Below are positions 6,651 through 61,020 of a stretch of 63,182 bases of DNA, in pieces. The stretch's first letter is position 1. Every line of letters begins with the position of its first letter. The notes under the pieces are model-generated. The model saw nothing but the letters and a program-made list of their open reading frames with translations. It was not told the origin of the DNA and did no database searches. Position numbers and translations under genes: made by a program. This DNA comes from Porphyra umbilicalis (lineage: Eukaryota > Rhodophyta > Bangiophyceae > Bangiales > Bangiaceae): assembly GCA_002049455.2 (NCBI GenBank), contig KV919151.1, positions 1-63,182 of the forward strand, read 5' to 3'.

Positions 6651-6659
6651 GTCCAGGTG

Positions 6660-18915: not shown

Positions 18916-21900
18916 GCCGGGTGCCCGACTTGGGGTTGCCCGGCGGAACGCGAAAGCGTACGGTGACAAGACTCTTACGTCGTGCCCTTCGGCACTATGA
19001 GATCGCAGCCACGTTAGGCCCATGCCTGCGCATAATGCGAAGTTGCCGCCCTGTCTTAGACACGGGCGCCGGGGTGAACATAGTGCGAACTAGTGTTCTC
19101 CCTTCGAACTGGATGGCTTACGCCGAAGAGTTGACTACGCTTCCGCGCATCCGAGATGCAAACAACAATCGTCTTGTGACGAAGTATGCCATACATCTGT
19201 ATGTAGACACCGGAGGTGTGCGTCTATTTGACCGATTCCTCGTTGCCGACAACTTGTCAGTCCCGTGCATTCTTGGCACCGAGTTCATTGAACAAAACAT
19301 CGAGGGCATTCTGCCGCGCTTTCGCAAGATCGTCTGGCAAGAGCACGTGCGATGCACGGAAGAGCAACCTCGGCCAACGCCGATCTTAGCTTGTCTTAAC
19401 GACAGCGCGTGGGACCGCCACTGGCAAGATAAACCCGCTCGGGTTCGAGCCTGCAAACAGGTGCGTGTCAACGGGCACAAGGAGGAGTGGATCATGGCCA
19501 CGTGCGACACGCCTGGTATGGTTACCATCACACCGAACATTCGGTTGTGCCGACACAAGTCCATGGCAGTCGCCCGCGGCATCGCCATCGTCAAACCGGA
19601 CGAACCATTCCTGGTCAAGTTATGCAACTTCGGCAAGGACCAAGTCATTGTTCGCAAGAACTCTACCTTGGGGTTTGCAGAACCCTACCAAGGGCCGATG
19701 CTTTCCGCCGTCTTGGATGACAACACCCCAAAGGGTGGAACCGATAATTCATCGGACGACGCGAGTCGTGACCCACTCGAGGACCTCGACCTCAGTGAGG
19801 CACCCGAGTACCTGCACAAGCAGATTCGAGACATGCTTAAGACGCATTCGTCTATGTGGGATGGAACCCTTGGCGTCATCCGTGCTACGGAGCACGCCAT
19901 CGTCACTCCTCCCGACGCTCTGCCCATACGGGCCCAACCCTACCGCACCGGGCCGTTCAAACGGCAGATCATCGCTGATCAGATCAACAAGATGTTGAAG
20001 CTCAACGTCATTGCCCCTAGCCATAGTGCTTGGGCAAGCCCCGTGGTAATCGTACCAAAGAAGAACGGCAAGGCCCGATTCTGTGTCGACTATCGTCGGT
20101 TAAACAACATCACCAAGAAGGATGCTTATCCCTTGCCTCGGATGGAGGACTGCCTCGACTCCTTGGGAGATGCCCAGGTGTTCACGTCCCTCGACTGCAC
20201 CGCGGGGTACTGGCAAGTACCCTTACGCAAGGACGACCAAGAGAAGACGGCGTTCACGACGCACTGTGGTATATACCACTGGTTATCCATGCCTTTCGGC
20301 TTGACGAACGCGCCCGCTACCTTTCAGCGCGCGTTGGATATTATCCTCTCGGGTTTGAAGTGGCAGATATGCCTCGTCTACTTAGACGATGTCATCATCT
20401 TCTCCGCCAACGCGGAACAACACGTCAAAGACGTTGACACGGTTCTTCACCGTCTCCGTGAAGCCGGGGTCACCCTCAACTTGGAAAAGTGTACGTGGTT
20501 CTCCGATGAGGTCGAGTACCTAGGACACATTGTCCGCCCCGGGCAACTGCACGTGCACAACAAGAACGTGGATGCTCTGAAGCATGCCAAGTTCCCAACC
20601 ACAAAGACCCAGCTGAAAAGCTTCTTGGGCATGTGCAACGTCTATCGACGGTTTGTCAAAGACTTTGCCAAACGAGCAAAGCCCCTGAACGCCCTGACTA
20701 GGGCCGAGATCCCACCGGATTTACCACCACCGACGGACGTGGCTATCGCCGCCTTCGAGGACCTTCGCAACGCACTGTTGTGCCCACCGGTACTTGCCTT
20801 GCCGAAGGCCAATCGGAAGCTCGTCGTTGACGTGGACGCATGCGCCGACCAAGTTGGTTGTACCCTCCTCCAAGAGGAGCCGGGCGAACTGCTTCACCCT
20901 GTCGGGTATTGGAGCCGAGGACTCACTGCTGCAGAGCAAAACTACTCCACTACGGAGCGAGAATGCCTCGGCGTTGTGTGGGCTGTCCTCAAGTTGAGGC
21001 ACTTCCTCGACGGACAACGGTTCCTCATCCGAACGGATCACCCAGCACTTAGCTGGATCTACAGCACGACCGACTCAAGCGGACGCTTGATGCGATGGCG
21101 ACTTCGCCTCTCCGAATACACATTCGATATGGTTTATAAACCAGGTGCATCGCACCACTTGCCCGACTTCCTGTCGCGCGCCTCTACGGTGGCGCCGCCA
21201 GAAGATATCCACGATGACATACCTTGTCTGGCGTTGGCCGAGACGGCCAACGGCTTAAGAACGGGGAGGTACACGGGTACCGACACACCGGAACCGGTGG
21301 AGTTCGACGATGTTGTCGAAGCACAACAAACAGACGACTTTTGCGTCGAGATGTCCACTCGCGTGGAGCGCGGAACGGCCAAGGCCTTCTTCCGCGATGA
21401 GCACCACGCTCTGTACCGTCGTGCGCCTTACGGCAACCAACTGGTTATTCCAAAGTCGCTACGCGAACGCGTGTTGACCCTCGAGCACCACGCAACCGTG
21501 GCCGCCCACCCTGGTATGAACCGGATGTACTACACAATGCGTAAGGCATACTACTGGCCTTCAATGGTGACGGATATTCATTCGACCATCACCAAATGCA
21601 CAACGTGTGCGCAAAACCGCCTCGCCTTGCGGCGGCACACCACGCCCTTGACCCTGTTCCAGGCTACCGAGCCTCTCACGGAGCTATCCGTTGACATCTT
21701 TGGGCCCATCCCGGCCTCCAAGAAGGGCAACCGCTTCATCTTGGTTATCACCGACCGCTTCGCCAAGCTCACCAAGTGCGTCGCCCTGCGGCGAATCACG
21801 GCTATGTCAGTGGCGTCAGCCATCATCGACGCGTGGGTGTCAGCCTACGGGCCACCGGACCGGATCCTATCGGACCAAGGGCCCCAGTTCATGTCGAACT

Positions 21901-43839: not shown

Positions 43840-45719
43840 GGCGTCACTCTTGGGAGGTGCGCAGCGGGAAACAATATCTTGTGGACCACAAGACAGGTGC
43901 TCGGCAGAGAGCACTCCCAGTGACAGGGGCGGAGCGCCGCATGCACGACCTCTCCTCCCACACCGATGGTTCCCTCCCAACTGCCAGTTGAGCTCCCCCC
44001 AAAACACGGATGCATCCGCAAAGGCACGCAGGATCAATGATCCGGATGGACTCGAGCTCGTGATTGCCACCACGGTCAAGACAGCGGACCACGCCGACGG
44101 CAAGGTGCTCGTGACCAATTGACCGTCCCCTTCTCAGAAGTAGCCAGCCCTCTTGCGATGGTCCTGAGAGAAAAAGGGTCCGCATCTGCTGCTGTGGAGG
44201 AGCCTTGTCAGAGCAAGTCTATCCGTGGGCCATTGTGCTATCGCCATCTGGCCGTATTTTTTGGCTATGGCCAAGAGCATCTCTATCAGTCAATTCTTGT
44301 GCTATATATGCAAATCCAGCTGCTCACCCCCTTCTGAAGGCCCTTACCTCTCGGTTGACTCGCAAAGCACCTTCCAATACAGATGATGGCCTTGTATGGT
44401 TCGAAGTCCGCGCACAGAGGGCCTGTGGTAAGGTAGCCAAAACAATTCCGAACTGGCGCGTTCGAGAGACGCGGTTGCTCGTCGTTCTATTGGTCCACGT
44501 CTTTGGCACAAAGGATGGCTATAGCTATCCTTCTGGCTATCCTGCGCACATTTGGCACGAAGGATAGCAATATGGCACAGGATATGGCAAAATGACCTCC
44601 CGATAGAGATGCCCTTGCACTGCGTGGTGGTATGAAGTTCACGGTATATGTTGAGATCCTTTCTTCTGAAAGAAATAAGGAGGAGTTATCAGGATTCGAT
44701 AGCATCGAGTTCGTCGGCATATCTCTGGGAAAGTACCAGGATCGGTGTGGGATTATCTCAGGGATTATCTTCGCGGGCCGTTAGGATAATCCGGCTGATA
44801 CGCCGCGGAGTTTTACTTGTCCGATCCTAGGATTGCCATGGTCTTCGATGGTGGAACGACCTGGGATCTGATCGAGGACTGTCTTCAAGATTGTTTGCAA
44901 GTTAGTTTCGCGGCGCATCCCATGGCATGGATGCATGACCGCCCAACAGAATAAACCCTGACACAGCACCTCTTTACATCCTTCGGACTGGTCCAAATTT
45001 AAAACCACATCCATCCTGTGTCATGTACCTGAGGAAAAAGCAGGCGCATCGGTCGACGCGGCCCCCAAGGACAATCGAAGCGCCTGTTTGAGGGACAAGG
45101 ATACCGACCGGATGCCCGCCCTTCCGGAGACGTGGTCCGGTGCTTATACTGGGCTTGACACGAGAGATAGGGAGAGAGATGATCTCGCATGCCTACATGG
45201 CATCAGAACGTGGAATGAAGCGAGATGCAACCTTCAGAGCGGTCCTCTCCCTAGGAAGAGGGATTATCCGTCGGATCGCTGCTTGGAATGCCTCGAGTGA
45301 CGGCCTCAGTATTATCTGCACGTACAGATCTGAAATTGTCGTCAGAACAGTCTCCAGAACGACCCCATTTACTCGTCGTCAGACCGTACCCTGTATGCGC
45401 AGCCATCATGACCTCATTTTTATCTCCTGTATTATACGTGCGACTTTTTTAAATAAAAAGATGCGGGAAAAGGCAACAGAAGAAGCACAGAATAAAACCA
45501 AAATCAACCCATGGAGAAATATTTTGACAAACAAAGAAAGTCAGGCATAAAAAAGTCTCCACGAACAGCGCTGCAGTCGCTAACGCCGGCATCGGGGTGT
45601 CGTCCGCAAAACATCGAGTCATGGGATGACCTCAAGGCCAGCTCGTGTTCAGTGCAACCCCATCTCTTACCGACGTGGTGAGAAGGGAAAACTGTGCTGT
45701 TGCAAGTCGTGCTTGTACG
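43840..45719. other. Intergenic, possible transposon left end
   Basis: GC content drops compared with the host genes. Holds a direct repeat TTTGGCAC(A/G)AAGGAT (44503-, 44551-), the 10-bp inverted repeat GCTATCCTTC (44524-44533) / GAAGGATAGC (44559-44568), and GGATTATC / GATAATCC inverted words at 44749-44792. No gene is supported; short frames near 45140-45550 end in AT-rich DNA. Confidence 0.45.
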
Positions 45720-47195
45720 CTAGTCACCTTCCTCATCCGATAGATTGATATCGCCAGCCTTGAGGTCCTTCAACTCGTCACGCATGCACCGGATCACGCC
45801 CTTGCGAGCCTCCGTGCTCTCTGGGCGCAAGAACTTCGGGTACTTTGCGGTGTCCACATAGGCTTTCAGGCAGGCAGCTCCGGCTGCTCGCACGGAGCTC
45901 CATATTTCACTCGGGTCCAGAAACAACAGCTCGGCTATGATAGTCGCCGCCGCTCCGTTCATGTCAAGCGCTCGCTCCATTTCGTGGTCCCCATCTTTGA
46001 GCTTCAATCGATACCCCACGTCTGAGTTCATGGCCAGTGCGCCAGCGGCGAGGACATCTGCGGCGTCGGCAGCGACGACGACACGCTCCATGGAGGCCTC
46101 GTTCACGTCATCATCCATGTAAACTCCAAGGGTGCGGTACGCCAGCAGCCGACCCGAGGTACGCCGTCTATTGCAGCGGGTACGTAGGCCCTTTTTCAGG
46201 GCCTGCTTCACGCCACGACGATTGTTTGACCAGCCGTTGGCACCATAGTCAATCTGGTTCGCATACTTCTCAATAGCTTTAGTCATGACAGCGCGGAGGG
46301 GGCGAGTACAGTCTTTGTTGGGTCCTTCGAGTTGTCCAGATGGGGCCAGCCATGAGAGGCAATCGTGTTCGGGCGAGTCGACGGCGCTTCCATTTCTTCC
46401 GGGGCTCGCAGTTCCTTCGAAGATTTTCTTCAGCATGGCCTGTGCGTATCGTGAAAACAGCGCGCTCAACTCATCCTGGAGCCACAACAGATCCAAGAAG
46501 ATAACAAAGCAATTCCGGTGCTCAACAGTGCGTACGAGTTAGTCTAGAGTCCGACACAGGTACGTAAAGATCGGAGGAGATCGGCGAAAGCAAGGCTGCC
46601 AGGCACAATGGTCCTTGACTCAAAATGTGAAGAGGTCAACGTACTCCATGTGCGTTCCAGACACTCACGAAGAGGGCATTGTCGACCAATGGTGAGTGCG
46701 GAGGTATGTCAGGGGCATCATCGGGGTCGCTGTGTGGCATGGCGTCTTCACCCTCAACAGTGTTCTCAGCCAAGTCACAACAGTGTTCCCAGTCAACGAG
46801 CAGTCGTCCCAGTAGCAGGTCAGGGCGTGTCACGTCTAAGCACCGTGGCAGACTGCGCTTCAAAGTGAATGAGTACTCACCGAGCCGACCTGTTGCAGAC
46901 GGCGGGGTGTCCGTCCAGGCTCACATCAGAGGATCTCCCAAAAAAAGGGCATGTGACCTCGCCGAGCCGGATACCGGGCATGTGAGGCCCCTGGCCGCCT
47001 CCTCACGGCGGGTGTGACGCGGAGATGGGCTTGGCGTGAATTTATTATCGCATTTATTCCATACGATGGACCAGTTGATCACTCACAGGAGAGGCACGCC
47101 CAGGAGCGAGCAGAATCTATCGCTAGCGCGATAGATTGCGGCATGCCCGGGCGGGGCAAACCCTTTGGCGCGCTGGAATCGCTGGAATCGGTCAT
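45720..47195 (-). CDS. Unknown protein, three exons, 371 aa
   Basis: Exons 47195-47087, 46919-46669 and 46475-45720. ATG 47195 opens MTDSSDSSAPKGLPRP; splicing (donors GTGAGTGA and GTGAGTGT, acceptors ...GATGTGAG and ...GGCTCCAG) is in phase 1 and phase 0 and removes all stops, total 1,116 nt. The first exon frame is also open further upstream to 47498, so a longer N-terminus is possible. The protein has an acidic/Pro segment (HSDPDDAPDIPPHSP), helical middle parts (ELSALFSRYAQAMLKKIFEG), a basic patch (KKGLRTRCNRRRT) and an acidic end (NLSDEEGD). No family is recognised. It lies left of the hairpin array and may be part of the candidate transposon. Confidence 0.6.
46476..46668 (-). other. 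Intron 2 of the unknown three-exon gene, 193 bp
   Basis: On the minus strand it starts GTGAGTGT and ends with a pyrimidine-rich stretch and GGCTCCAG. It separates ...VDNALF from DELSALF exactly between codons. Confidence 0.65.
46920..47086 (-). other. Intron 1 of the unknown three-exon gene, 167 bp
   Basis: Starts GTGAGTGATC and ends CTCTGATGTGAG after a T8 run. Joining 47087 to 46919 completes a split codon (T plus CC) and keeps the frame open. Confidence 0.6.
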
Positions 47196-47710
47196 GCGGC
47201 AGATCTCTGCGGCCGGCGACAGCGGGTACTTGACACAAAGTGAGGGGCTTGTGGTAATTTTTAACAATTGATGCGAGATATTGTAACGTATCCGCCTCGC
47301 CCGGCCGGCGGCCGACGAGTGATCTGAATCAGATCGGCCCGCACCCTCCACGGCGCGGATAAACTGCGGAGCACCACACATCCGGAGGAGCGAGGCAGGG
47401 GAGCACGCCGCCAGGCCCATCTCCGTGAAGGGGTGCGTGCCGCTGCGGCATGGGGGCGCGCCACACCTGAAGACCGCCACGCGCGCTCGAGCGTCCACCG
47501 TACCGTCGTGCCACTCATCCCTGCCGCCGCTCTTTGTCTCTCAACGTACGTGCGCGACGCACCTCCCGATCCCCTCATTGTTTTTTCTCTTTCCCCCTTC
47601 CACACTCTCCCCTCATTGTTTTTTTTTCCACCCTTCCACACTCTCCCCCCCGCCCTTTGCCGGCCCACCCCCCCCCCTCCTCCCCCGCTTGTAATTTTGA
47701 GGACCAAGGC

Positions 47711-48694
47711 TCGTCACCCCGCCGGTGGGTGCAGGCCAGACCTTCGCCGGTCGCCCGAAAGGGCGATCGTGTCCTGTTTGTGCCGCGGGCTGCGCCCCAT
47801 TTACTGGGGCCGACCGCTGGGATTTTTCGAGTGGCCGCCACGCCGGGTAGGCGGTCCTCACTGTGCTATTTCGGTCGTCACCCCGCCGGTGGGTGCGTAC
47901 CAGTCTGCCGCCGGTCGCCCGAAAGGGCGATCGTGTCCTGTTTGTGCCGCGGGCTGCGCCCCATTTACTGGGGCCGACCGCTGGGATTTTTCGAGTGGCC
48001 GCCACGCCGGGTAGGCGGTCCTCACTGTGCTATTTCGGTCGTCACCCCGCCGGTGGGTGCGTACCAGTCTGCCGCCGGTCGCCCGAAAGGGCGATCGTGT
48101 CCTGTTTGTGCCGCGGGCTGCGCCCCATTTACTGGGGCCGACCGCTGGGATTTTTCGAGTGGCCGCCACGCCGGGTAGGCGGTCCTCACTGTGCTATTTC
48201 GGTCGTCACCCCGCCGGTGGGTGCGTACCAGTCTGCCGCCGATCGCCCAAACGGGCGATCGAGCTGTCGTGGTGCCACGTGCTGAGCCCCTCTTGCTGGG
48301 CTCAGCCGTGTCCCCCTCTTGCCCTGACCATTTGGTCGGGGACAGAGGCTCGGCACCCCGCCGGTGGGTGCAGGGCAGACCACCGCCGATCGCCCGATCG
48401 GGCGGTCGTGCTTTGGTTGTGCGCCGCGGGCTGTGTCCCCTTCGCTGGGGCTAACCGCTGGCTTATTAGAGTGGCCGCCACGCCGGGTGGGCGGTCCTCA
48501 CTGTGTTTTTTCGCTCGTCATCCCACGGGTGCGTGCGTGCCGGCCCGCAGGTGATCGCCCAGGAGGGCCTGTTCGCTGTTGTGCTGCTGCCGGCTGTGCC
48601 CGCTTTCTCGGGCCAGCCGCTGACAGTTGGGCGTGGCCACCACTCCGACTGAGTCGTTCTTTGTGACTCGTCACCCCATCTGTGGGTGCGGGCC
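47711..48694 (+). repeat. Tandem ~164-bp hairpin repeat array
   Basis: Units begin TCGTCACCCC or a variant at 47711, 47875, 48039, 48203, 48350, 48515 and 48668 (the last partial). The first three are 164 bp and almost identical; later units are 147, 165 and 153 bp and diverged. Each can form hairpin A (GGTCGCCC-GAAA-GGGCGATC in units 1-3) and hairpin B (GCCCC-ATTTACT-GGGGC); most can form a third (GGCCGCC...GGCGGTC). Both arms of A and B change together between units. The array ends at the ATG of the JmjC ORF. Several frames are open, so short ORFs here are not evidence of protein. Confidence 0.9.
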
Positions 48695-51600
48695 ATGGAG
48701 GGGCGCGATGCCTCCGAGCCACTCAGGCCCATGCCCGGCGAAATTTCTCGCAACCAACGTCGCCAAGTGGCACGGGCCCGGCGGCGGGCGGAGGCCATGA
48801 CCGCCGAAGCAGCCCGTGCGGCTGAAGAAGCCGCGCGAGCCGTTGAGGCCGCGGATGCGGCCGAGCGCGGGGCCGTGGCACTGGCCCGACGGGCCGAGAC
48901 TGCTCCCCCACCGGCCCCCACGATTCCGCTCGGTATCAGCCGCGGAAGCGCTGGCCGGGGCGGTCGTGGCCGCGGACGTGGCCACGGCAGTGCCAGGGGA
49001 CGTGGCGGTGGCGAGCACCCGCCGGCTCGAAAATTCGGGCCGTCCCTGCTGCAAGGACAGGTAGATGGCGGCGGATCGCGGCATGGTGCGGTTGCCGACA
49101 CTGCATCCCACTCAGTGGGGGGGCGCCAACCCCCGCGTGCGATGAGGGGACGAGGTCGGCTCGGGGCCCGGGGACCGAGCGTCGAGTGCACTCGCGTGCG
49201 GCCAGACGGGGCGCCATCTGGCTGTGACGGGTCTCTGCCGGCATCGGATGCCATGTCCGTCGTCAACGACGCACGGCGGGTATTGGCTGGTCGATCCGGT
49301 GGGCTGACAGCTTCGCAGCTGCGGATGCTCCTGTCCGCCCTGGAACTGGCTGGGCCGGAGTTTCTTCCCAGCCCCGTCCGGCTGCAAGTGCTGAGACAGT
49401 GTCGCGGGGGGTGTGGCGACGTGGAGGCGATTGATTCGCTGTTGGGTTCCGCTGTAAGGATCTTGCAAGGCGACCGCGGCGGTGTGCCCGACTCGGCCGA
49501 TACTGCGCCAGCCGGGTTCCTCGTCCAGCAAGCACTGGCCTCCCACGGATGCAAGGGCCAGTGTCGCGCGGCTGCGCACCGAGCCCCACCTCCTGCCCGC
49601 CTCCCGAGTTCTTCTTGTCCACCGGCCGCACCCCCGTCCATCCCGCCCCTCCAGCCTTCTGGCCACACCGCGGCAGAGGTGAGCGCTCGCAGGCGTCCAC
49701 CTCGGCGCCCCGTGCCCCCTCCCCCCAAGCGGTTCCGCGGCACGGGGAGCCGCGATGGCGACCCAACATCGACCGCCACCGTCACGACCTTTGCGCCACC
49801 GACGCCTCGTGGCGTGCCATCTATGCCATCCACCGCTCGCGCAGATGCCGGCCGGCAGGCGCCCTCCGTGCCCGTTGGTCTGGTGCCACCACGTTTTCTT
49901 TTTCCCATCCGCGCTGAGCGGCAGCGCGAGCTGTTGACAGCGGACGTTGCGTCGTTGAGAGACGGCAATGACATGTCAACGCAAATGATGGACGGATTGC
50001 TGCTGTGGTTCCTCTACTGGACCAAGAGCGGCGGGGTTAACGGGGGCCTGCGCGTGCTTTCGGCTCTCGATGCCCAGGACATCAAGGACGCGTCGATCGA
50101 CGACAACCTGTTTGTCAACAGGGCCGCTAATGTCCTGCTCGACCGCTTCGTGTTCAGCGGCGGGACGGTCCTGATACCAGTTTACAGTGGTCGGGGGTGG
50201 TCGGGTGTGGTTGTGAGAGACCTGCACAAGGTCGTGCCCTCGGTCGCCCAGGCCGTCCTCGATGGCGACGCTCAACCCGTTGCCGGGGCGTTTGTGATCC
50301 TCATCAACACGCATGCAGGGAACGGGGGTGCGGAGGTGGACTTTGATGTGGTGAATGGCCTCTTCCACTCCTTGACTGCCGCCATCTGTCAGACACGTCT
50401 CCGCCACATGGACTCCGTCGGCATGAGAATGCGTGTTAACGGCTGCCTGCGGACACGGTTGCCCGTGAGTCGGGTGACGACCCCTGACGGGGAGCTCGCG
50501 GAGACGGCAGACCACCTTCTGGCGTACTTTGCGTTGCTCTTGTCCGCTGAGCCGAAAGCAGCAGATTGTCTTTTGCGCACTGACAATGGACTGCAGTGGA
50601 GCAAAGCCCATGCCCCCCGGCGGCTACGAGGCCTCGTCCGTCGCATCGTCGAAGCGCATCGACCGGAAGGCGAGGTCTGGAATGAGCAGGAGCCGGGCGA
50701 AGAGCTATTGAACGGTCGCGACGTGTCTGAGGACGAGGTCGCTGACAGTGGCGATGGCATGCGTGACTTGACGGACGACGACGAAGCTGGCGGAGACGGC
50801 AGCACACGCAATGGCGGTCGCGATGGCGACGTTGTTGTCGACGACCGACCACACGGCGGCGGCCAACGACGGGGACGCGGCGGAGGGCGTGATGGTGGCG
50901 ACGGGGGACACGTGGGCACCAAGGACGACGCCGCCGGCGATGTTGTCGCCGACGACGGGCGTCATGGCGGCGGCCAACGACACGGACGCTGCGGAGGGCA
51001 CATTGGTGTTGACGGGGGACTCCTTTATGGAAGCGACGCCGGTGACGCCGGTGGCTACTCACGCGGTCACGGCGCAGGTGCAAACGACGACGCCGCTGAC
51101 GACGTCGGCGTGGACGACCGACGACAATGCGGCGACCAACGACAGGGACGCGGGGGAGGGCATTTCGGTGTCGACGGGGGACACGTGCACGCAAGCAGCG
51201 CCGGTGACGCCAGTGGGCGCGCACTAGGTCACGTCGTGGGCGCCATGGCCGAAGCCGCCGCCGACGTCGTCGTGGACGACGGACCGCACGGCGACGGCCA
51301 ACGACAACGACGTGGAGGAGGGCGTGTTGGTCACGACGGGGGACTCGTCGGTGTAGTACCCATCGATGACGCCGCCTCCGAAGTCGTCGCTGACGTCGGA
51401 CGTCACGGCCGCGGCCAAGGACACGGGCGCGGAGGAGGGCACGTGCGTGTTGACGGGGGACACGTGCACGACAGCCGCGCCGGTGACACCGATAGCGACG
51501 GTGTTGTCGACGGCCGACCACACGGCGGCGGCCAACGACGGGGACACGGCGGAGAGCATGTCGGCGTCGACGGGAGACTCGTGCACCCACGCCACGCCGC

Positions 51601-54600
51601 TTACGCCGGTGCCCACGCACTCAGTCACGGCGCAAGCGACAACGACGACGCCGCCGCCAACGTCTTCGTGGACGACCGACGACACGGCAGTGGCCAACGA
51701 CACGTACGCACCGATTCACGTGTTGGTGGCGACGGGGGACTCGTGGGCGCCAACGATGACGCCGCCGCCGACGTCGTCGTGGACAACCGACGTGGCGGCG
51801 GCGGCGCACGACACGGACTCGGTGGAGGGCACGTTGCCGGTGACGGGGAACACGTGCACAAAAGCCGCGCTGGTGACAATGATGGCCACGCACTTGATGA
51901 CGTCGTTGGCGGCGACGACAACGCCGCCGCCGACGTCGTCGTCGACGACCGCCGACAAGGCGGCGGCGAACGACAGGGACGTGGAGGAGGGCACGTTGCC
52001 GGTGACGGGGAACACGTGCACCAAAGCCGCGCCGATGACAATGATGGCCAAGCACTTGATGACGTTGTTGGCGGCGACGACAACGCCGCCGCCGACGTCG
52101 TCGCCGACGACCGACGACACGGCAGTGGCCAACGACACGTACGCACCGATTCACGTGTTGGTGGCGACGGGGGACTCGTGGGCGCCAACGATGACGCCGC
52201 CGCCGACGTCGTCGAGGACAACCGACGTGGCGGCGGCGGCGCACGACACGGACTCGGTGGAGGGCACGTTGTTGGTGATGGGGGACACGTGCACAAAAGC
52301 CGCGCTGGTGACAATGATGGCCACGCACTTGATGACGTCGTTGGCGGCGACGACAACGCCGCCGCCGACGTCGTCGTCGACGACCGCCGACAAGGCGGCG
52401 GCGAACAAAAGGGACGTGGAGGAGGGCACGTTGCCGGTGACGGGGAACACGTGCACCAAAGCCGCGCCGGTGACATTGATGGCCAAGCACTTGATGACGT
52501 TGTTGGCGGCGACGACAACGCCGCCGCCGACGTCGTCGCCGACGACCGCCGACAAGGCGGCGGCCAACGACACGGACGTGGTCATGGGAATGTTGGTGGC
52601 GACGGGGGATTCGTGGGCGCCAACGATCACGCCACCGCTGACGTCGTCGTACTCGACCGACGTCGCGGCGGCGGTCAACGACACGGACTCGGTGCAGGGA
52701 ACGTTGTTGGAGATGGGGGACACGTGCACAAATGCCGCGCTGGTGACAATGATGGCCACGCACTTGATGAAGTCGTTGGCGGCGACGACAACGCCGCCGC
52801 CGACGTCGTCGTCGACGACCGCCGACAAGGCGGCGGCGAACAACAGGGACGTGGAGGAGGACGCGTTGGTCGCCACTGGGCACTAGTGCGCGCAGGACCC
52901 GACGCCGACGCCGCCACAGACGTCGTCGTCGAAGGCCGACCAAACGGCGGCGGCCAACGACGGGGACGTGGCAGAGGGCATGTCGGCGGCGACGGGGGAC
53001 CCGTGCACCCACGCCACGCCGCTTACGCCGGTGCCCACGCACTCAGTCACGGCGCAAGCGACAACGACGACGCCGCCGCCGACGTCGTCTTGGACGACCG
53101 ACGACACGGCATTGGCTTACGACACGTACGCACCGATTCACGTGTTGGTGGCGACGGGGGACTCGTGGGCGCCAACGATGACGCCGCCGCCGACGTCGTC
53201 GTGGACAACCGACGTGGCGGCGGCGGCGCACGACACGGACTCGGTGGAGGGCACGTTGCCGGTGACGGGGGACACGTGCACAAAAGCCGCGCTGGTGACA
53301 ATGATGGCCACGCACTTGATGACGTCGTTGGCGGCGACGACAACGCCGCCGCCGACGTCGTCGTCGACGACCGCCGACAAGGCGGCGGCGAACGACAGGG
53401 ACGTGGAGGAGGGCACGTTGCCGGTGACGGGGAACACGTGCACCAAAGCCGCGCCGGTGACCATGATGGCCAAGCACCTGATGACGTTGTTGGCGGCGAC
53501 GACAACGCCGCCGCCGACGTCGTCGCCGACGACCGCCGAAAATGTGGCGGCCAACGACACGGTCGTGGTGATGGGAATGTTGGTGGCCACGGGGAACTCG
53601 TGGGCGCGAACGACGACGCCGCCGCCGACGTCGTTGCCGACGACCGACGTCGCGGCGGCGGCCACGGACACGGACTGGGTGGAGGGCACGCTGCTTGTGA
53701 CGGGGGACATGTGCATCAAAGGCGTGCCGGTTACGCCGCCGGCCACGCACTTGGTCACGGCGCAGGCGGCAACGACGACGCCGCTGCAGACGTCATCGTG
53801 GACGAGCGACCAGTCGGCGGCGGCCAACGACACGGACGTGGTGATGGGAATGTTGGTGGCGACGGGGGACTCGTGGGCGTGAACGACGACGCCGCCGCCG
53901 ACGTCGTTGCCGACGACCGACGTCGCGGCGGCGGCCAACGACACGGAATGGGTGGAGGGCACGTTGCTGGTGACGGGGGACATGTGCATCAAAAGCGCGC
54001 CGGTGAATCCGGTGGCCACGCACTCGTTCACGGCACAGGAGCCAAGGACGACGCCGCCGCCGACGTCGTCGTGGACGACCTACCAGACGGCGGCGGCCAA
54101 CGACACGGACGTGGCGATGGGAATGTTGGTGTTGACGGGGGACTCGTTCGTGCAAAGCAAGCCGCTGAGGCTGTTGGCCACAGGCACAGCCGAGACGTGG
54201 CCGACGGCATTGCCAACGACGCATGTAACGCCGGCACAGGGGAGGGTGAACCCGTTGAACGTCCCACCGTGCGAGTTGGCCGTCTCGGGGGTGGTCTGTC
54301 GTTGTTGGGTGGAGTGTCTGTCTCGTGTCGCGATGATCCATTGTCGAGCTTAGACGCCGAAGATCTCAGGTTCCTTGCAGGCGCTCTGTCTTCGTCTTGC
54401 TCGCCTGAAGGACTCCCGAGCCGTTCTGACCTGTCATGCCCGCACACTAGCGATGGAGAGCATCTCGGGGCTGTGGTTGCTGTCGCGAGCGCCCAAAACT
54501 GCGGTACATCCGGAGTGGGTGGCGGCTCAGAGGTGCCCGCCCACGGGCTTGGGTCTCTACAGCGATGCGTCAAGCAGTTCCACTCAGCACCCATAACTAA

Positions 54601-56365
54601 ATTATCATCGGTGCCTGAATTTGGACTGCACAGTCTGATTCGATCACACAGTGGGTCAATTCGGACTTTTGGTGCGCACGTGTTCCGCATAGTAGCACCC
54701 GAGAAACGCCCTGTGTCCAGTCGTATGCCAAAGCGACTTTCCGGGGACAAGATCAGGGTGCGGGTTCAAACCTTTCCACAGTTCCCGACCATTGTGTGCG
54801 ACGCATTCTATGGCCAACCTGCGGCAGACCCTAGCGTTAAGCGCCAAGAGTTACGTGCTCATCTGCCGTCGGAACGGGAAAGGCGGTGGTCAGGTGCGGA
54901 GATCAACACCAAAGTCAGCCAGAGTGCAGACGCCCTTCGAGCGGAGTACAAACACTTTGATGTGAAACGCTTCCTCAGCAGCGTGAATGATCCGAGCTTG
55001 ACATGGGTGAGACGGACAACCTCTGCTGGGAACGAGAAGATGGTGTTGGGGGGGGAGCCAGGACCAATCGATGTGTACTATCTTTCAGATATGTCACCTC
55101 GCAACGAGGATGGATGCGGCAGGAGCCTTGGTGACCCTGCGTGCACCGCCATCGCGGCTCGTGTTCCTCCTCGCGAGCGATTTGAAAATCCACGCACTCT
55201 AAACCACCACACCATGCTCGGTGCCGCATCTACGTACGAAGGGATTAACACCAACTTGCTCTACATTGGTTCCAGAGGCTCCCACTTCAGCTGGCACGTG
55301 GAGGACAGTCTATTACAGTCCACATCGTACTTGCAGAAGGGCTCCATCAAGTTCTGGTTTTTTATTCCTGCCCCCGAACGTCCGCGAGCGGAGCGCGTCA
55401 TGCGGGAACACATGGACCCGGCTGTACTTGCAGCGGCTGGAGGGGATGTATGGGAGGTACTCGCTGTGAAAGCGTGCCTGTGGCCTGCGACTCTTTTCCT
55501 AGCGCATGGCGTTCGCGTCGGGTTCCACAAAATGGAGACCGGTGACTTCGTTGTAACGGGGTACGGAGTACTGCACAGTGGATTCAACGGGGGACCAAAC
55601 ATAGCCTCGGCGGTGAACCTGGCATGCACCGGGTGGCTCTCGTATGCGATGGAACATGCCGCGCACTGGCGTACAAAGCTCACAATCCACATCCCTTTCG
55701 AAAAGTTACTGGTGCTTGCGGCTCAAAAGCTAGCCGATGGGGAATGGTGGTGCGGCGACGCAAAGACCTATGAATCGTGGGAGCCAGAAGAGTTCAGACG
55801 CGATGTGGTCGTGATGGTGTCGTACTTGGAAGAATACCTCAACGCTGTCCTCGACTTCATGGAAATGGAATCCCAACCAGGCTGGGGGGGCAAAAAGCCC
55901 ACTGCTGTGGCCCTGGAAAGCGCATCACGAGCTGTCCAACAGTTTATCGTTGAAAATGCGATCCAGCCGGACGGTGAGCCCTTGGAGCTCCCGAACGAGA
56001 TAAAGGGAACTGCTACAGACTACTCTGTCGACGGCGCGTCATGCCCGCACTGTGGTGTAGTGACATGGATTTCTACGGTTGTCTGTCCGTCGTGCATTGA
56101 GCAGCTCGGTGATGATGCGGTTGCAAATGCGCCACTGTGCTGCTGGCGGTGTGCACGTGGCATGCTCAATGAAGAGCATGATCGGCTTCGCAAGGGCCTG
56201 CAGACTTCGAAGGGCCTGGTGGGATGTCATGCTCCTGTGTTGGTGCAGCGGCTGGCCAACAGTGACGTGTACCTGTTGGTAGACAAGCTGAAGAGGCTCG
56301 GTGGGGGGGGGGGAAGGGTGGCTCTTGAGAAGACTCGTTTTTGGTTTCCATCGACTGTCTTTTAA
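48695..56365 (+). CDS. Giant JmjC-domain protein, 2,556 aa
   Basis: Single-exon ORF from ATG 48695. N-terminus: helical Arg/Ala/Glu segment, then an RG-rich stretch. Residues ~400-640 look like a decayed Ulp1 (C48) protease fold. Residues ~700-1850 are Gly/Asp/His-rich tandem repeats. Residues ~2165-2330 form a JmjC domain of KDM4/KDM5 type: iron ligands His2201, Glu2203 (FSWHVED) and His2294 (VLHSGFNGG), a 2-oxoglutarate-binding Lys in KGSIKFW, and the FHKMETGDFVVT strand. A Cys-rich element follows (CPHC...CPSC...CCWRC), like the zinc-binding region after JmjC in KDM4/5. The expected activity is Fe(II)/2-oxoglutarate-dependent histone lysine demethylation; no PHD, Tudor or clear JmjN domain is seen. 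It faces the transposase gene tail to tail. Confidence 0.85.
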   Translation: MEGRDASEPLRPMPGEISRNQRRQVARARRRAEAMTAEAARAAEEAARAVEAADAAERGAVALARRAETAPPPAPTIPLGISRGSAGRGGRGRGRGHGSARGRGGGEHPPARKFGPSLLQGQVDGGGSRHGAVADTASHSVGGRQPPRAMRGRGRLGARGPSVECTRVRPDGAPSGCDGSLPASDAMSVVNDARRVLAGRSGGLTASQLRMLLSALELAGPEFLPSPVRLQVLRQCRGGCGDVEAIDSLLGSAVRILQGDRGGVPDSADTAPAGFLVQQALASHGCKGQCRAAAHRAPPPARLPSSSCPPAAPPSIPPLQPSGHTAAEVSARRRPPRRPVPPPPKRFRGTGSRDGDPTSTATVTTFAPPTPRGVPSMPSTARADAGRQAPSVPVGLVPPRFLFPIRAERQRELLTADVASLRDGNDMSTQMMDGLLLWFLYWTKSGGVNGGLRVLSALDAQDIKDASIDDNLFVNRAANVLLDRFVFSGGTVLIPVYSGRGWSGVVVRDLHKVVPSVAQAVLDGDAQPVAGAFVILINTHAGNGGAEVDFDVVNGLFHSLTAAICQTRLRHMDSVGMRMRVNGCLRTRLPVSRVTTPDGELAETADHLLAYFALLLSAEPKAADCLLRTDNGLQWSKAHAPRRLRGLVRRIVEAHRPEGEVWNEQEPGEELLNGRDVSEDEVADSGDGMRDLTDDDEAGGDGSTRNGGRDGDVVVDDRPHGGGQRRGRGGGRDGGDGGHVGTKDDAAGDVVADDGRHGGGQRHGRCGGHIGVDGGLLYGSDAGDAGGYSRGHGAGANDDAADDVGVDDRRQCGDQRQGRGGGHFGVDGGHVHASSAGDASGRALGHVVGAMAEAAADVVVDDGPHGDGQRQRRGGGRVGHDGGLVGVVPIDDAASEVVADVGRHGRGQGHGRGGGHVRVDGGHVHDSRAGDTDSDGVVDGRPHGGGQRRGHGGEHVGVDGRLVHPRHAAYAGAHALSHGASDNDDAAANVFVDDRRHGSGQRHVRTDSRVGGDGGLVGANDDAAADVVVDNRRGGGGARHGLGGGHVAGDGEHVHKSRAGDNDGHALDDVVGGDDNAAADVVVDDRRQGGGERQGRGGGHVAGDGEHVHQSRADDNDGQALDDVVGGDDNAAADVVADDRRHGSGQRHVRTDSRVGGDGGLVGANDDAAADVVEDNRRGGGGARHGLGGGHVVGDGGHVHKSRAGDNDGHALDDVVGGDDNAAADVVVDDRRQGGGEQKGRGGGHVAGDGEHVHQSRAGDIDGQALDDVVGGDDNAAADVVADDRRQGGGQRHGRGHGNVGGDGGFVGANDHATADVVVLDRRRGGGQRHGLGAGNVVGDGGHVHKCRAGDNDGHALDEVVGGDDNAAADVVVDDRRQGGGEQQGRGGGRVGRHWALVRAGPDADAATDVVVEGRPNGGGQRRGRGRGHVGGDGGPVHPRHAAYAGAHALSHGASDNDDAAADVVLDDRRHGIGLRHVRTDSRVGGDGGLVGANDDAAADVVVDNRRGGGGARHGLGGGHVAGDGGHVHKSRAGDNDGHALDDVVGGDDNAAADVVVDDRRQGGGERQGRGGGHVAGDGEHVHQSRAGDHDGQAPDDVVGGDDNAAADVVADDRRKCGGQRHGRGDGNVGGHGELVGANDDAAADVVADDRRRGGGHGHGLGGGHAACDGGHVHQRRAGYAAGHALGHGAGGNDDAAADVIVDERPVGGGQRHGRGDGNVGGDGGLVGVNDDAAADVVADDRRRGGGQRHGMGGGHVAGDGGHVHQKRAGESGGHALVHGTGAKDDAAADVVVDDLPDGGGQRHGRGDGNVGVDGGLVRAKQAAEAVGHRHSRDVADGIANDACNAGTGEGEPVERPTVRVGRLGGGLSLLGGVSVSCRDDPLSSLDAEDLRFLAGALSSSCSPEGLPSRSDLSCPHTSDGEHLGAVVAVASAQNCGTSGVGGGSEVPAHGLGSLQRCVKQFHSAPITKLSSVPEFGLHSLIRSHSGSIRTFGAHVFRIVAPEKRPVSSRMPKRLSGDKIRVRVQTFPQFPTIVCDAFYGQPAADPSVKRQELRAHLPSERERRWSGAEINTKVSQSADALRAEYKHFDVKRFLSSVNDPSLTWVRRTTSAGNEKMVLGGEPGPIDVYYLSDMSPRNEDGCGRSLGDPACTAIAARVPPRERFENPRTLNHHTMLGAASTYEGINTNLLYIGSRGSHFSWHVEDSLLQSTSYLQKGSIKFWFFIPAPERPRAERVMREHMDPAVLAAAGGDVWEVLAVKACLWPATLFLAHGVRVGFHKMETGDFVVTGYGVLHSGFNGGPNIASAVNLACTGWLSYAMEHAAHWRTKLTIHIPFEKLLVLAAQKLADGEWWCGDAKTYESWEPEEFRRDVVVMVSYLEEYLNAVLDFMEMESQPGWGGKKPTAVALESASRAVQQFIVENAIQPDGEPLELPNEIKGTATDYSVDGASCPHCGVVTWISTVVCPSCIEQLGDDAVANAPLCCWRCARGMLNEEHDRLRKGLQTSKGLVGCHAPVLVQRLANSDVYLLVDKLKRLGGGGGRVALEKTRFWFPSTVF
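50795..54240 (+). repeat. Coding tandem repeats inside the JmjC ORF
   Basis: About 25 units alternate between a short type (~37 aa, GGDGGLVGANDDAAADVV with RHGRGGG) and a long type (~53 aa, with HVHKSRAGDNDGHALDDVV). Unit lengths are multiples of three, so the JmjC frame stays open. Because the units lack stops in other frames too, a Thr/Pro/Ala-rich frame (51366-52886) and Arg-rich antisense frames are also open for over 1 kb. The frequent His-Gly-Arg-Gly and Asp-Asp patches suggest a disordered low-complexity region. Confidence 0.88.
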
Positions 56366-56560
56366 TAGTCTCCGGGTCTTGATATCCTAGTTCTGACGTT
56401 CCCGGGGGGGGGTGGGGCGTGGAGGTTGGTGTGCTCGCCGCATTCTCTTTTTCGTGTGCTCAAGTTCTGTTCCGTGAGGTGATGCATCCAGAGAAAGCAA
56501 GATAGTAGTTTGCTCAAAACACCCCGCTACCGCATCTCCAGTGGCCATTGACACCCCTAG
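56366..56560. other. Convergent 3' intergenic gap, 195 bp
   Basis: Separates the stop codons of the JmjC ORF and the transposase. It holds a G8 run and GC-rich words but no AATAAA on either strand that I can see; the two transcripts must end within it or overlap. Confidence 0.5.
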
Positions 56561-59518
56561 TCACCCACTCTTGAAATGGAAGCCAGATCTCTTGGTGAAC
56601 ATGATGTTGTGCTGCCCGCAAGGTAGCACGAAGGCAAGCTGCCTCACACGGTCAGCTGGTATCAAAGACAATCCAGCTACAGTGTCAATTGTGACCTCAG
56701 CAGGCTGTCCTAAGACGCTAAACGCCATCGCTGGTACCTTCCAGGTCTCACAGGCGATATGGAGCTCGCCATCGATGCTTCCAATCGACTGGACACGGAC
56801 AAAGCGCCAGTCTTCGCTATCCACCACATCGGAACCGGACTCGTGTTCGGGGGCGGCTCCATTCTCAAGTAGTGACACTGTGGACCCTTCTCGGATGACA
56901 AACGATCGATGCGCTTGCGTGGCTTGGCGCCAGAATTCCAGAGTCGCGCTGGGCGCACGACTTCTCCAGAACTCCTCCGTGGATCCCAGAACCGTGCGTG
57001 CGGCTATTCTTGGACGCCAAAGCATGTTGGTGTACGGTGCTTGTCGTTTGTGTGGGCCGAGGCTATGAAAAACGACAGACTTCAGTGGCTGGCCTTCTTG
57101 ACCGAGAAGCCACGAAGCGGGAATCCCATGTGCGCCTGGCATGGCCAGCACCCTGGAATATTGCTCTGTGTCTCTCCACCTTTGCATTGAGTACTCAGCG
57201 GGGTTCCGACTGTTGCTCTGGCTCACCTCCCGCTTCGAATGTTGGTGGAACTTCTCGAAAATGAGCTCACATATCGCGGACCCCAGCTGTGCAAGTGGGA
57301 GAGTGCGATATAGCAGTTCCAGTACACGATGCACGGACGGTCGCTCCCAACTTCCGTTAAAGAGTAACAGTCGACGTAGCTCAATCATGAGGCTCTCGCC
57401 GATAACTTGGAGTTCAGCGACGGTCGGCCGCTTTCTCATGGCCTTCTCCCCGTCGGACGAGGCTGTTGGCACATAGAACAGAGCAGTGGAAAACCGTCGC
57501 AGGGCCTTGAGAGCTCTGAGGGTAGCCACCGCATGAGGTGAAGTGGCAGTGTTATGCACGAGATACTGCAACACTGTGGGGCCTACGGTGAGAAGCACTG
57601 CATAGTCTGACATGGACAACGTTGTGCCACCCATTTTTTCTGGCTCGAATGAGGACAGTATCGTGTGTGTCGGAACATGCTTCGCGCTGCGGCGCATTTC
57701 CCGCATGAACTTGTCTCGCTGCTCGACCGAGAGTGCCTCGTACGCTTCCATAAGCAGGTGTGAGCCAATGTTGTAGTACAGTTTATGTGAAGGAGCAACT
57801 ATGACGTGCTCGTGTATGTCAAACGTTCCAGGTCCTCGGGCCTCTGCCAGGCGCATCATCAAACTGCCAGCCTTGTCTGTAATGCCGTTCAGTAGGAGTG
57901 CGTCCCTCACTGCGTCTGTCGACAGCCCCGGTGTGTTCTTTATAACAGACATGATGAGAGAAGTTCGCTCTTGCGTTCTCGAGTACCGTGAATCCCTCAC
58001 ATTGAAAGAAACAGTGCTGCTCATCGCCCGCTCCTTCCTTTCTGTGACTGTTTTTTTGTGGACAATGTCGCAGCTTGTGCAGTGCTCCGTGCCTTGGGCG
58101 CCGATCGAGTTAGAGAACTTTGCGGCCATGGGAAAATCAAAGACACCGAGACATAGGTATACCCGAATGACAACGCTCTCCTTCTTGAAAGCGTCATAGA
58201 CAACCAAGCCCTCCTTACCCGCTCTTATCAAGTCGTCGACGATCTTTTTGAGCAGGGCTTCTGGGCTTGCTCCTGGGGGTAAGTAGAAGAGAGGACGAAC
58301 AGAAAACGCACGATCCTCCAAGCACAGAGAGGTGTAACCCCCGTAGTAGCCCTCCAGGCTTCCACGGCGACGTTTATGCACATTGAACTCGTCCCCGTAC
58401 AGCGACACATACACTACGTATGGATCCTTCTCGGAGAGGTCGTCTTCTCTGGGCTCAGCCACACAGGACAGCTCTAAGGGGCTGGCGGCGGTCAAAGCTG
58501 ACCATGAATCTTTCTCATGCTCGGTGGACTCCCGGACGGCGATAACAAACACGCCACCGGACCGCGTGAAGCGTAGTGTAACCCGGCGTTCTTCCGTGAA
58601 ACATGGAGCCCAGCGCTCTGGCGGCATAAACCCGGGAAGGGCCTCAAACAGCGCGATTGTGTCACCTACGCCTAGCGTGCGTTCAGATGCATACGTGGAC
58701 GCCGACGCAGTTACGCATCCATCAGGCGCAATAGAAGTGCTCAATAAGCGGGCCTCGAACGCGGTCGCGTCATCAAAGAAGACCTTGGCAGTGCATCCAA
58801 TGTCGAACCTGTATTGTTCACGGAAGAAGACGTTCTTCAAATTAAACCTGGCGGGGTCCCTGGCTGCCACTGTTTGAAAGAACTCGGCCGGGCGCTCAGC
58901 TGTGCCCATTCGCGAGTCCCCCTTGTTGTGGAACAGAGCTGCCGTCACAGGATCCGCAAAGTCCCTCTTCAGGTGCTCAGAAAACGTAATGTAAGACACT
59001 TCCACGTTCGGCAGTGTGCGCATGGCTTTGCCTTTTCCAACAGGTAACTGGCGCGTTGTCTTTTCCCGTCGCAAGGGGATTGCAGACTTCAACATGTGCT
59101 CGCGCAGCTTTCGCAAGCGCCACCGCGACGGCCATTTTTCTGTCGGATAAAAGGAGTTTTCTGCCTCTCGCATAATGTCGTACTGCCTCAGCGTGACACG
59201 CGCTCTGCCGTACAGGTATCCGAAGCACAAGAACTCGCGACGCGATGCAAAGCCCCCAGCATCGCGGTCCTCGTCGCAGGAGAAGTCCGAGTCTTCTGAG
59301 GGACACCCGTCACGCCCAGAGTCGGAGGACAGAGCAACGTCCTCCCTGGTGCCCGAATCATGTGGGTTTTGGTTTGCCACACTGCATTCGGTATCCTCCA
59401 AGTCTACAGCTGGTGCGGCAGAGCCCGATGTCGCTTTTTGTTCTTCCATATGCAATAGGTTCCCATCATTGAGATCAAAGAAGGCAGCACCTCGCGGGCC
59501 ACGTCTGCGACGCTTCAT
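56561..59518 (-). CDS. DDE transposase, CACTA/Plavaka/KDZ type
   Basis: 985 aa from ATG 59518, uninterrupted. The N-terminus starts with a basic patch (MKRRRRGPRG) and an acidic Ser/Asp stretch. The central part follows the plan of Transposase_21/Plavaka proteins: YVSLYGDEFNVHK with the presumed first catalytic Asp376; then VFDFPMAAKFSN with Asp461, before a C-x2-C pair (HCTSC) like the zinc-binding site inserted in these transposases; then SHKLYYNIGSHLL; and finally FEKFHQHSKREVSQSN with the presumed catalytic Glu755. It would cut at terminal inverted repeats and move the element. It shares a convergent 3' region with the JmjC ORF. Assignment to one of the related superfamilies needs a profile search. 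Confidence 0.75.
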   Translation of the reverse strand: MKRRRRGPRGAAFFDLNDGNLLHMEEQKATSGSAAPAVDLEDTECSVANQNPHDSGTREDVALSSDSGRDGCPSEDSDFSCDEDRDAGGFASRREFLCFGYLYGRARVTLRQYDIMREAENSFYPTEKWPSRWRLRKLREHMLKSAIPLRREKTTRQLPVGKGKAMRTLPNVEVSYITFSEHLKRDFADPVTAALFHNKGDSRMGTAERPAEFFQTVAARDPARFNLKNVFFREQYRFDIGCTAKVFFDDATAFEARLLSTSIAPDGCVTASASTYASERTLGVGDTIALFEALPGFMPPERWAPCFTEERRVTLRFTRSGGVFVIAVRESTEHEKDSWSALTAASPLELSCVAEPREDDLSEKDPYVVYVSLYGDEFNVHKRRRGSLEGYYGGYTSLCLEDRAFSVRPLFYLPPGASPEALLKKIVDDLIRAGKEGLVVYDAFKKESVVIRVYLCLGVFDFPMAAKFSNSIGAQGTEHCTSCDIVHKKTVTERKERAMSSTVSFNVRDSRYSRTQERTSLIMSVIKNTPGLSTDAVRDALLLNGITDKAGSLMMRLAEARGPGTFDIHEHVIVAPSHKLYYNIGSHLLMEAYEALSVEQRDKFMREMRRSAKHVPTHTILSSFEPEKMGGTTLSMSDYAVLLTVGPTVLQYLVHNTATSPHAVATLRALKALRRFSTALFYVPTASSDGEKAMRKRPTVAELQVIGESLMIELRRLLLFNGSWERPSVHRVLELLYRTLPLAQLGSAICELIFEKFHQHSKREVSQSNSRNPAEYSMQRWRDTEQYSRVLAMPGAHGIPASWLLGQEGQPLKSVVFHSLGPHKRQAPYTNMLWRPRIAARTVLGSTEEFWRSRAPSATLEFWRQATQAHRSFVIREGSTVSLLENGAAPEHESGSDVVDSEDWRFVRVQSIGSIDGELHIACETWKVPAMAFSVLGQPAEVTIDTVAGLSLIPADRVRQLAFVLPCGQHNIMFTKRSGFHFKSG

Positions 59519-61020
59519 GTTTTACTGGATGAGAACAAGTTGGACTGATCCAGGCACTGACGCGACACGGTGCGACGGGAGGATAGGTGGTACCACAAGC
59601 TCTGCATGCGCACAGAGCGGAGGCGGTGAGGCGTGCACGACGTCGAAGCAAAACTTTGAAGGGGCAACGGAGGAAGGAACTCTGGCGAAGAGCGAAGAGC
59701 GGGGCAAAGCCACCACCGCACGTGAACCAATGGGTGAGGCTCAGGCTCATGCGCTGGTGGCAACCGAGGCTCCCGTCTTCAGATCAATGTGGTGTGAGGC
59801 TCCTCGCCTGATTCCCGGATTCGTGGCCACCCAAGAGTATCCCGGCTGGTGCTACAAGGTGCACGGACCACTCCTACAGGAGATTTGCGATACAGAGCCT
59901 TCTGTTCTGCAGTGATTTGTCTGGCCCACCAACTGTGACCAGAGGCTATGTTCTGGCTGTACCCTAGGCGTATGCATCGCCTTGCCCGTCGTTTGATCTC
60001 GCAGACTATCTGAAGGACAGTCCCCGAAAACAGTCCCCCAAAACAGGCCTCACCTGATCTTCAACATTATCCTGAGGACGGTCCAGACGACGCAACGGGA
60101 AAAGCTCACAGGATAGATTCATGATTAATTCCACGACTCGTCCTGTACCGAGTAGGAGATCTCGTCCGGACAGTCCTCTGGAAAATCCGACCGACTTCCC
60201 TGAGCCGATCTCTGGATCGGTACAGGATGATCTCATGCTTGCGCCAAACCAACCTCGAGAATCGATGTGGCTGCATAAGAAATTCTATCCTTCATCATAT
60301 CCTCGGGAAAATCCGATCTCGGGCCCAGGATTAAATAAGGACGCGCTCACGTCTCGCCGTGTGGCCATCGGATGGCAAAATGGCACACCGATAGACTTGA
60401 TCTCACCCCACACCATTGCCAACCCGCACGAGGCCATATGACCGCTGGACCGGCGCCAACCGCCGAGCGACGACCGCGCGCGTGGCACGCGGGCACCCGC
60501 GCCGCATCGTTGGCCGCCCGCTTCGCGATTGCCACCGCCGACGGATCTCGCTGAAGCAGCGGCGGGCGGGGGCACCAACGGCGGGCGGGCGGCGGCAGTC
60601 GGCGGCGGTGCGCAGGGCCCGTGACGATACCCATCGACAATGACGAGCAGCTTGTGCGTGGCAGCAGTGGGGACCCCGCCGCTATCTTCTGCGCTGCCCA
60701 GCGGCGGTACACCACCGCGGCGGCGGCCGCTGCCGGGCGGTGCCGTCGACCGCACCGGTGTGTAGGCGTTCGCTGGAGCGCCGTCGCTCGACACACGACG
60801 CCGACGGCGACCAGCGGCTGTGGTGCCACATGACACGGGGGCGCACCAGCGGGAGGGCGCAGTAGAGCGGCGCGCGGTGCTTTCAGGCATGGAGGCCCGG
60901 CCGGCGAAGACGCGTGCGCCTCGGCTGGAGCAGCAAGCTCGGCGACCCGCGGAGGCGCTCACCTCGAGTACGACACGTGTCTTGCTGTCCTTATTTGGGG
61001 ACTCGCGCTGAAGACTGACT
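59519..61020. other. Upstream of transposase; probable right end
   Basis: 59519-60360 is moderate GC, with repeated GGAC(A/G)GTCC- and AGGATGATCTC-like words at 60010-60240 and CTATCCTTC at 60285, perhaps subterminal repeats. From about 60420 the sequence becomes GC-rich like host DNA; a plus-strand frame (MEARPAKTRAPRLEQQ, ending at 61011) and an overlapping minus-strand frame are both open there, and neither can be preferred. Confidence 0.35.

Follow-up and report, generated by a model that had tools for sequence, protein, structure and literature searches.

The window analysed here, a 63,182-nt stretch of the Porphyra umbilicalis genome (contig KV919151.1; C391 in our searches), contains a giant, uninterrupted open reading frame (ORF) of 2,556 amino acids on the forward strand (48695..56365, with the ATG at 48695 and the stop at 56365) that encodes a protein with a JmjC domain. 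As the preliminary description of this DNA had stated, it faces tail-to-tail an intact ORF of 985 amino acids on the reverse strand (59518-56561), which encodes a tnp2-type DDE transposase; the two stops lie 195 bp apart. Both ORFs are located within the originally proposed limits of 48695..59518, but these limits are too narrow, since the mobile unit extends from 44618 to 60361 and includes a third gene. A large part of the left half of the window is taken up by Copia-like and chromodomain Gypsy-like retrotransposon ORFs (4794-7844, 9390-12503, and 17269-23372), which were recognized by eye from their translations. The gene pair had also been described as a block less GC-rich than nearby host genes. 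This applies to the transposase gene (55.2%) and the JmjC core (55.9%) when compared with positions 1-44617 (62.9%), a stretch that contains both host genes and retrotransposon ORFs, but not to the repeat and N-terminal part of the JmjC gene (67.6%).

Within the giant ORF, a conserved N-terminal domain with no assigned fold (49883..50695, forward strand) is followed by in-frame, Gly/Asp/Val-rich tandem repeats (50924..54181, forward strand; periods of 111, 117, 162, 273, and 435 bp) and by the JmjC catalytic core with a C-terminal helical, cysteine-rich region (54626..56362, forward strand), in which the JmjC domain proper occupies 55259..55618. The N-terminal domain showed a dN/dS of 0.154 against the copy on contig C117. 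Its best Pfam match was DUF6581 at E 0.31, PDB matches appeared only at E of about 1 or more, and there was none in NCBIfam; a ULP1-like protease, an idea formed by eye, was without support from the Pfam and PDB sequence searches. For the N-terminal domain as for the JmjC core, single-sequence structure models reached a pLDDT of 34 and were unusable. The repeat tract varies in length among copies, and the JmjC ORF ranged from 1,907 to 2,556 amino acids across the four fully read copies (C20, 2,357; C27, 2,490; C117, 1,907). In the C8 copy, the N-terminal domain and JmjC lie in different frames. A tandem array of a 164-bp unit (3.4 copies, 47711..48261) is located between the third gene and the JmjC gene, near the start of the latter, and the C117 copy has related repeats at the equivalent position.

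Pfam identified a JmjC domain in the 2,556-aa ORF above its cut-off (3e-14), and the HxE..H motif and the 2-oxoglutarate-binding Lys are both present in the sequence. A PDB profile search with the JmjC region returned 58 sequences at E <= 0.001, comprising chains of KDM4, KDM5, JMJ13/14, the rice protein Os05g0196500, Rph1, and JARID2, together with one called only '2-oxoglutarate oxygenase'; these matches and the conservation of the predicted catalytic residues agree with the earlier assignment of the protein as KDM4/5-like. The Fe(II) triad (H2201, E2203, and H2294), which had been correctly named as complete, was unchanged in all 15 aligned copies, several of which are near-identical, and core positions Y152, D155, H224, E226, K242, H317, and N325 were kept in the same 15. 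The triad and the Lys and Tyr/Asp positions showed no change even in copies with as little as 33-37% identity to the window. Core position 234, which we take to correspond to N198 of KDM4A, a cofactor-binding Asn that contacts 2-oxoglutarate, is Ser in 15/15 copies, where the cofactor-contact Asn is usual. Pfam found no JmjN in the four segments searched, and a candidate picked by eye was unsupported. The zf-C5HC2 domain was matched by Pfam in one of the 15 copies, at E 0.61 only; the Cys/His region is conserved. KDM4 enzymes usually act on H3K9me and H3K36me, and KDM5 enzymes on H3K4me. By its sequence, the JmjC protein is of the KDM4/KDM5 type, and we infer for it a demethylase activity and an anti-silencing role.

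The transposase of the window (56561..59518, reverse strand) matched Pfam Transposase_21/tnp2 (PF02992) at 4e-6 with 26.6 bits, below the cut-off of 28.6; a tnp2 match at E <= 1 was obtained for 13 of the 14 aligned transposases, the window's included, the best being 2e-8. The probable catalytic residues are D376, D461, and E751 or E755, an assignment that we presume from comparison with tnp2 motifs. D376 and D461 did not vary among the 13 rows (of 14) that extend to them, nor did E751 and E755 among the 12 that do so, and C480 and C483 (C-x2-C), H569, H571, and H578 were the same in all 14. According to the available part of PMC12730594, the segment from the second D to the last E carries a C(2)C and an H(3-4)H motif in transposases of the CMCT clade. 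The spacing of the His residues here (H569/H571/H578) is 1 and 6, as opposed to 3-4 in that motif, and E751 and E755 are both candidates for the last E.

The third gene lies on the reverse strand near the left end of the element. Its exon 2 (45720..46475) had a dN/dS of 0.125 against C117, and a putative exon 1 (46645..46740) was joined to it by a GT..AG intron inferred by eye, the boundary (...SVWNxHG, then GTACGT) being conserved between the window and C117. Neither Pfam nor NCBIfam gave a match to the third gene, and PDB matches occurred only at E above 1. The genome contains at least 150 matches to it (147 of 168 candidates scored), which merged into 131 loci; 73 of these had a JmjC gene no more than 25 kb away and arranged as in the window, and 58 did not; the latter are perhaps deletion derivatives or belong to other elements.

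The edges of the complete transposon (44618..60361) were placed where homology to other copies begins and ends, and from the empty sites of the C117 and C8 copies. The match of the C20 copy to the window begins at 44618, and the matches of three differently flanked insertions (C20, C27, and C117) end at base 60361; the element is therefore 15,744 bp long with the ends 5'-CACTGCG...CGCCGTG-3'. The left terminus (CACTGCG, 44618..44624, forward strand) is identical in C20 and C117 and reads CACCGTG in C8. The right terminus (60355..60361, reverse strand), which is based on the right ends of independent insertions, reads CACGGCG inwards, and CACAGCG in most other copies read. The window insertion is flanked by a target site duplication (TSD) of TG (44616..44617 and 60362..60363). 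The comparison of copies that the preliminary description had called for thus yielded common CAC..GTG ends and 2-bp TSDs in all four insertions read at both ends (TG in the window, CT in C20, AA in C117, and GA in C8). The C117 and C8 copies are 14,700 bp and 16,500 bp long, respectively, and copies range from 99% down to about 35% JmjC identity. Since the C16 copy aligns with the window through the right flank as well, it represents the same insertion (an allele or duplicate) and not an independent one. In two divergent copies (L022 and L025), the shared sequence extends two bases (CA) beyond the terminal GTG, and the end or TSD assigned to them is tentative. A 36-nt inverted repeat (44207-44242/60371-60406, 83% complementary) was rejected as the terminal inverted repeat, as it lies outside the ends of the element; it is perhaps part of a repeat that was hit by the insertion.

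Empty sites were searched for with the joined flanks of two of the four copies read at both ends (C117 and C8), the junction being at base 120 of the query. For C117, whose query kept a single AA, 40 matches were listed (40 of 100 candidates scored). At least 27 other loci read across the junction, with identities of 96-100% in alignments covering query bases 27-240 or more; C209 did so at 98% over a shorter stretch (92-240), and nine further loci among the matches listed at 78-81%. The remainder consisted of both flanks of the copy itself and a single match stopping before the junction. The C117 copy sits within a dispersed repeat family. For C8, the junction was crossed by C52 (95%), C1 (93%), C39 (92%, query 1-229), and C298 (93%, query 53-240), the others of the ten matches being weaker. 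One of the two traced insertion sites is in low-copy sequence. These uninterrupted junctions show directly that the element inserted as one piece at the C117 and C8 sites. The JmjC gene, the transposase gene, and the third gene are one mobile unit with exact ends; the earlier proposal that the first two belong to one mobile element is borne out by the common ends, the TSDs, and the empty sites of two copies.

The distribution of the pair was determined in the whole assembly searched (83.8 Mb, 665 contigs); the counts are minimum values, and they may include allelic pairs of loci such as C391 and C16. The window transposase gave at least 49 matches (46 of 305 candidates scored), which fell into 46 loci, and 43 of these 46 best loci had a convergent JmjC gene 903-1976 bp away. 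In a wider set, which also drew on a second, divergent transposase as query (71 of 243 candidates scored) and on the PF02992 matches of the JmjC-associated type (136 PF02992 matches in all, 150 of 176 candidates scored), a convergent JmjC gene lay within 8 kb at 79 of 93 transposase loci (median distance, 989 bp), and a JmjC gene in any arrangement at 82, among the matches listed. Co-occurrence, which the preliminary description had suggested checking, is thus frequent, with 14 of the 93 loci lacking a listed convergent JmjC gene; three of these 14 have one within 8 kb in another arrangement. Pfam JmjC gave 105 matches in the genome, of which 79 were paired, and among the remaining 26 were three host-like genes along with matches that are weak or broken. 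Among 20 JmjC loci fetched for inspection, 17 had a tail-to-tail relative of the transposase, although L024 had it only partly.

As a control, we used a second class of tnp2 transposases, which we split off by a profile start under 60. A JmjC gene was present within 8 kb at 0 of its 67 loci among the matches listed, compared with 60 of 69 JmjC-type transposases in the same search. Many members of this class have open frames of 929-1046 amino acids with equal scores, and it is apparently a different CACTA family without JmjC. If the JmjC gene and the transposase gene were chance neighbours, pairing within 6 kb would be expected at about 0.4% of loci; set against this are the pairing within 8 kb in the wider set, the control, and the common ends. 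The preliminary description had named a single-copy JmjC gene, with the transposase elsewhere in other copies, as the sign of a chance association, and within this genome JmjC proved to be multicopy and mostly paired. Because the pair recurs across the genome, chance pairing is excluded for practical purposes.

The two genes also diverge together. Pairwise identities of JmjC and transposase were strongly correlated across 12 copies, some of them near-identical (r = 0.97; Spearman, 0.83; Mantel p = 0.0001), and the two trees agreed except for the L014 family, which is weakly placed. Module swapping was considered for this family and rejected, as AU tests did not reject agreement of the trees (p 0.052 and 0.155). 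Ratios of dN/dS are given only for finite dS, a saturated dS allowing no ratio. For JmjC, dN/dS was 0.21 between the window and C117, 0.17 between L016 and L021, and 0.12-0.19 for deeper pairs, in which dS was finite but high (1.6-2.2), and for the transposase it was 0.12-0.17; recent copy pairs gave JmjC values of 0.41-1.87, on few changes. Both genes are thus under purifying selection. DNA transposons commonly capture host genes, and the JmjC gene might accordingly travel as a passenger of no use to the element; however, its dN/dS of 0.12-0.21 in the sampled families is near that of the transposase, and it adjoins the great majority of the transposase loci among the matches listed, which makes this explanation very improbable.

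Three of the 20 JmjC loci fetched (C344, C30, and C263) are host-like and without a transposase. The C344 gene is the closest to the element, with 29% identity over 333 aligned positions including the C-terminal cysteine-rich region, and the two have HVEDSLLxSxSY in common, whereas the other two host-like genes have HTED...INY. Likewise, C344 (L026) has Ser at position 234 like the element copies, and the other two retain Asn. Pfam found no JmjN in C344 and one at E 0.087 in C30. The match through the cysteine-rich C-terminus and the common motif suggest that a C344-like host gene is the likely source of the element's JmjC, although C344 itself could be a domesticated transposon copy. A viral origin was rejected: tblastn against 30 and 113 pattern-matching stretches of viral_contigs revealed no relative of the JmjC protein or the transposase.

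CACTA elements have a second small gene and repeats near their ends, a likeness to the element described here. It also resembles CACTA/EnSpm transposons in its tnp2 transposase, CAC..GTG ends, and short TSD, and differs from them in its JmjC gene, its TSD of 2 bp instead of 3 bp, and its very short, imperfect inverted ends. In the available part of PMC12730594, TSDs are given as 3 bp in fungal EnSpm and 2-5 bp in CMCT elements, and Plavaka termini as TGT..ACA or CATCA..TGATG. The 2-bp TSD found here is inside the CMCT range and differs from that of EnSpm, and the CAC..GTG termini are those of CACTA/EnSpm and unlike the published Plavaka ends, which places the element nearer EnSpm/CACTA than Plavaka. 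The original label of a CACTA/Plavaka-type transposase therefore stands in its first half, as a CACTA/EnSpm-like tnp2 enzyme, and not in its second.

Taken together, we read the element as an autonomous, CACTA/EnSpm-like cut-and-paste transposon with three genes, in which a host-derived demethylase of the KDM4/KDM5 type would erase a repressive mark and keep the transposase gene expressible; we put the probability of this reading at roughly 0.7. A host demethylase similar to that of C344 would have been the source from which a progenitor acquired its JmjC gene. The enzyme, produced together with the transposase, would act on the chromatin of the element itself or of its target and strip from it a repressive methyl mark on histones, and the transposase gene would stay expressible as a result, self-protection being the simplest reading. 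The N-terminal domain and the repeats may target or anchor the enzyme, and the small third gene could be a TnpA-like DNA-binding partner. The fuller account, in which an old and diversified CACTA-like clade carries an active histone lysine demethylase that was captured once from the host and selected as an anti-silencing eraser, is in our view somewhat better than an even bet.

Two other roles for a stable JmjC component deserve weight. The protein may act by binding, as a pseudo-demethylase whose role is to bring in host factors or to keep silencing complexes away, or it may hydroxylate a non-histone protein such as the transposase. The change from Asn to Ser at one usual 2-oxoglutarate contact, common to all copies aligned, is consistent with such a role, and a non-enzymatic role is described for the fission yeast JmjC protein Epe1 in the available part of PMC7192584. 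On the other hand, if catalysis had been lost, some of the Fe triad, Lys, and Tyr/Asp residues should have gone with it, whereas all of them persist in the most divergent copies; we regard a binding or non-histone role as unlikely, if the strongest of the alternatives. Somewhat less probable still is that the enzyme acts in trans on chromatin at target sites or genome-wide and steers insertion rather than guarding the element from silencing. The location of the C117 copy in a dispersed repeat family makes insertion into silenced DNA conceivable, but just two insertion sites were traced, including the one in low-copy sequence.

Among the matches listed in a search of the open-licence PMC literature, we found no DNA transposon carrying a histone demethylase or JmjC gene. 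The nearest parallel is provided by the fungal DNA transposons (EnSpm, Plavaka, KDZ, and others) that carry TET/JBP genes, as described in the available part of PMC12730594: they too encode an Fe(II)/2-oxoglutarate dioxygenase for an epigenetic mark, and their EnSpm members have CAC..GTG ends, but their enzyme acts on 5mC in DNA and the EnSpm TSD is 3 bp, in contrast to the histone-demethylase-type JmjC and 2-bp TSD observed here. The same text describes Phytophthora elements (HarbingerS and MuDR) that carry SET methyltransferase genes, another case of a histone-modifying enzyme on a DNA transposon, although these enzymes are writers and not erasers and the elements belong to other superfamilies (PMC12730594). 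In Arabidopsis VANDAL elements, the element-encoded VANC counters silencing of the element, as we propose for the JmjC protein; in the part of PMC10398659 available, VANC is presented as a sequence-specific anti-silencing protein of MuDR-type elements and not as a demethylase. Multicopy KDM4-like JmjC genes on a mobile or viral genome are described for the endogenous giant viruses of Amoebidium, but there the giant-virus insertions carry JmjC, and the Plavaka-flanked repeats are described, in the available text, with tyrosine recombinases and not with JmjC (PMC11244446).

Transposons known to counter silencing do so with sequence-specific anti-silencing proteins or with enzymes that demethylate DNA (TET/JBP). 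A clade that keeps a histone-demethylase-type JmjC across deep divergence would show that the arms race is also fought at the histone level and, if our reading is true, would be the histone counterpart of the TET-carrying fungal transposons. The mark that the enzyme erases would then point, as a natural experiment, to the histone modification by which this lineage silences its transposons.
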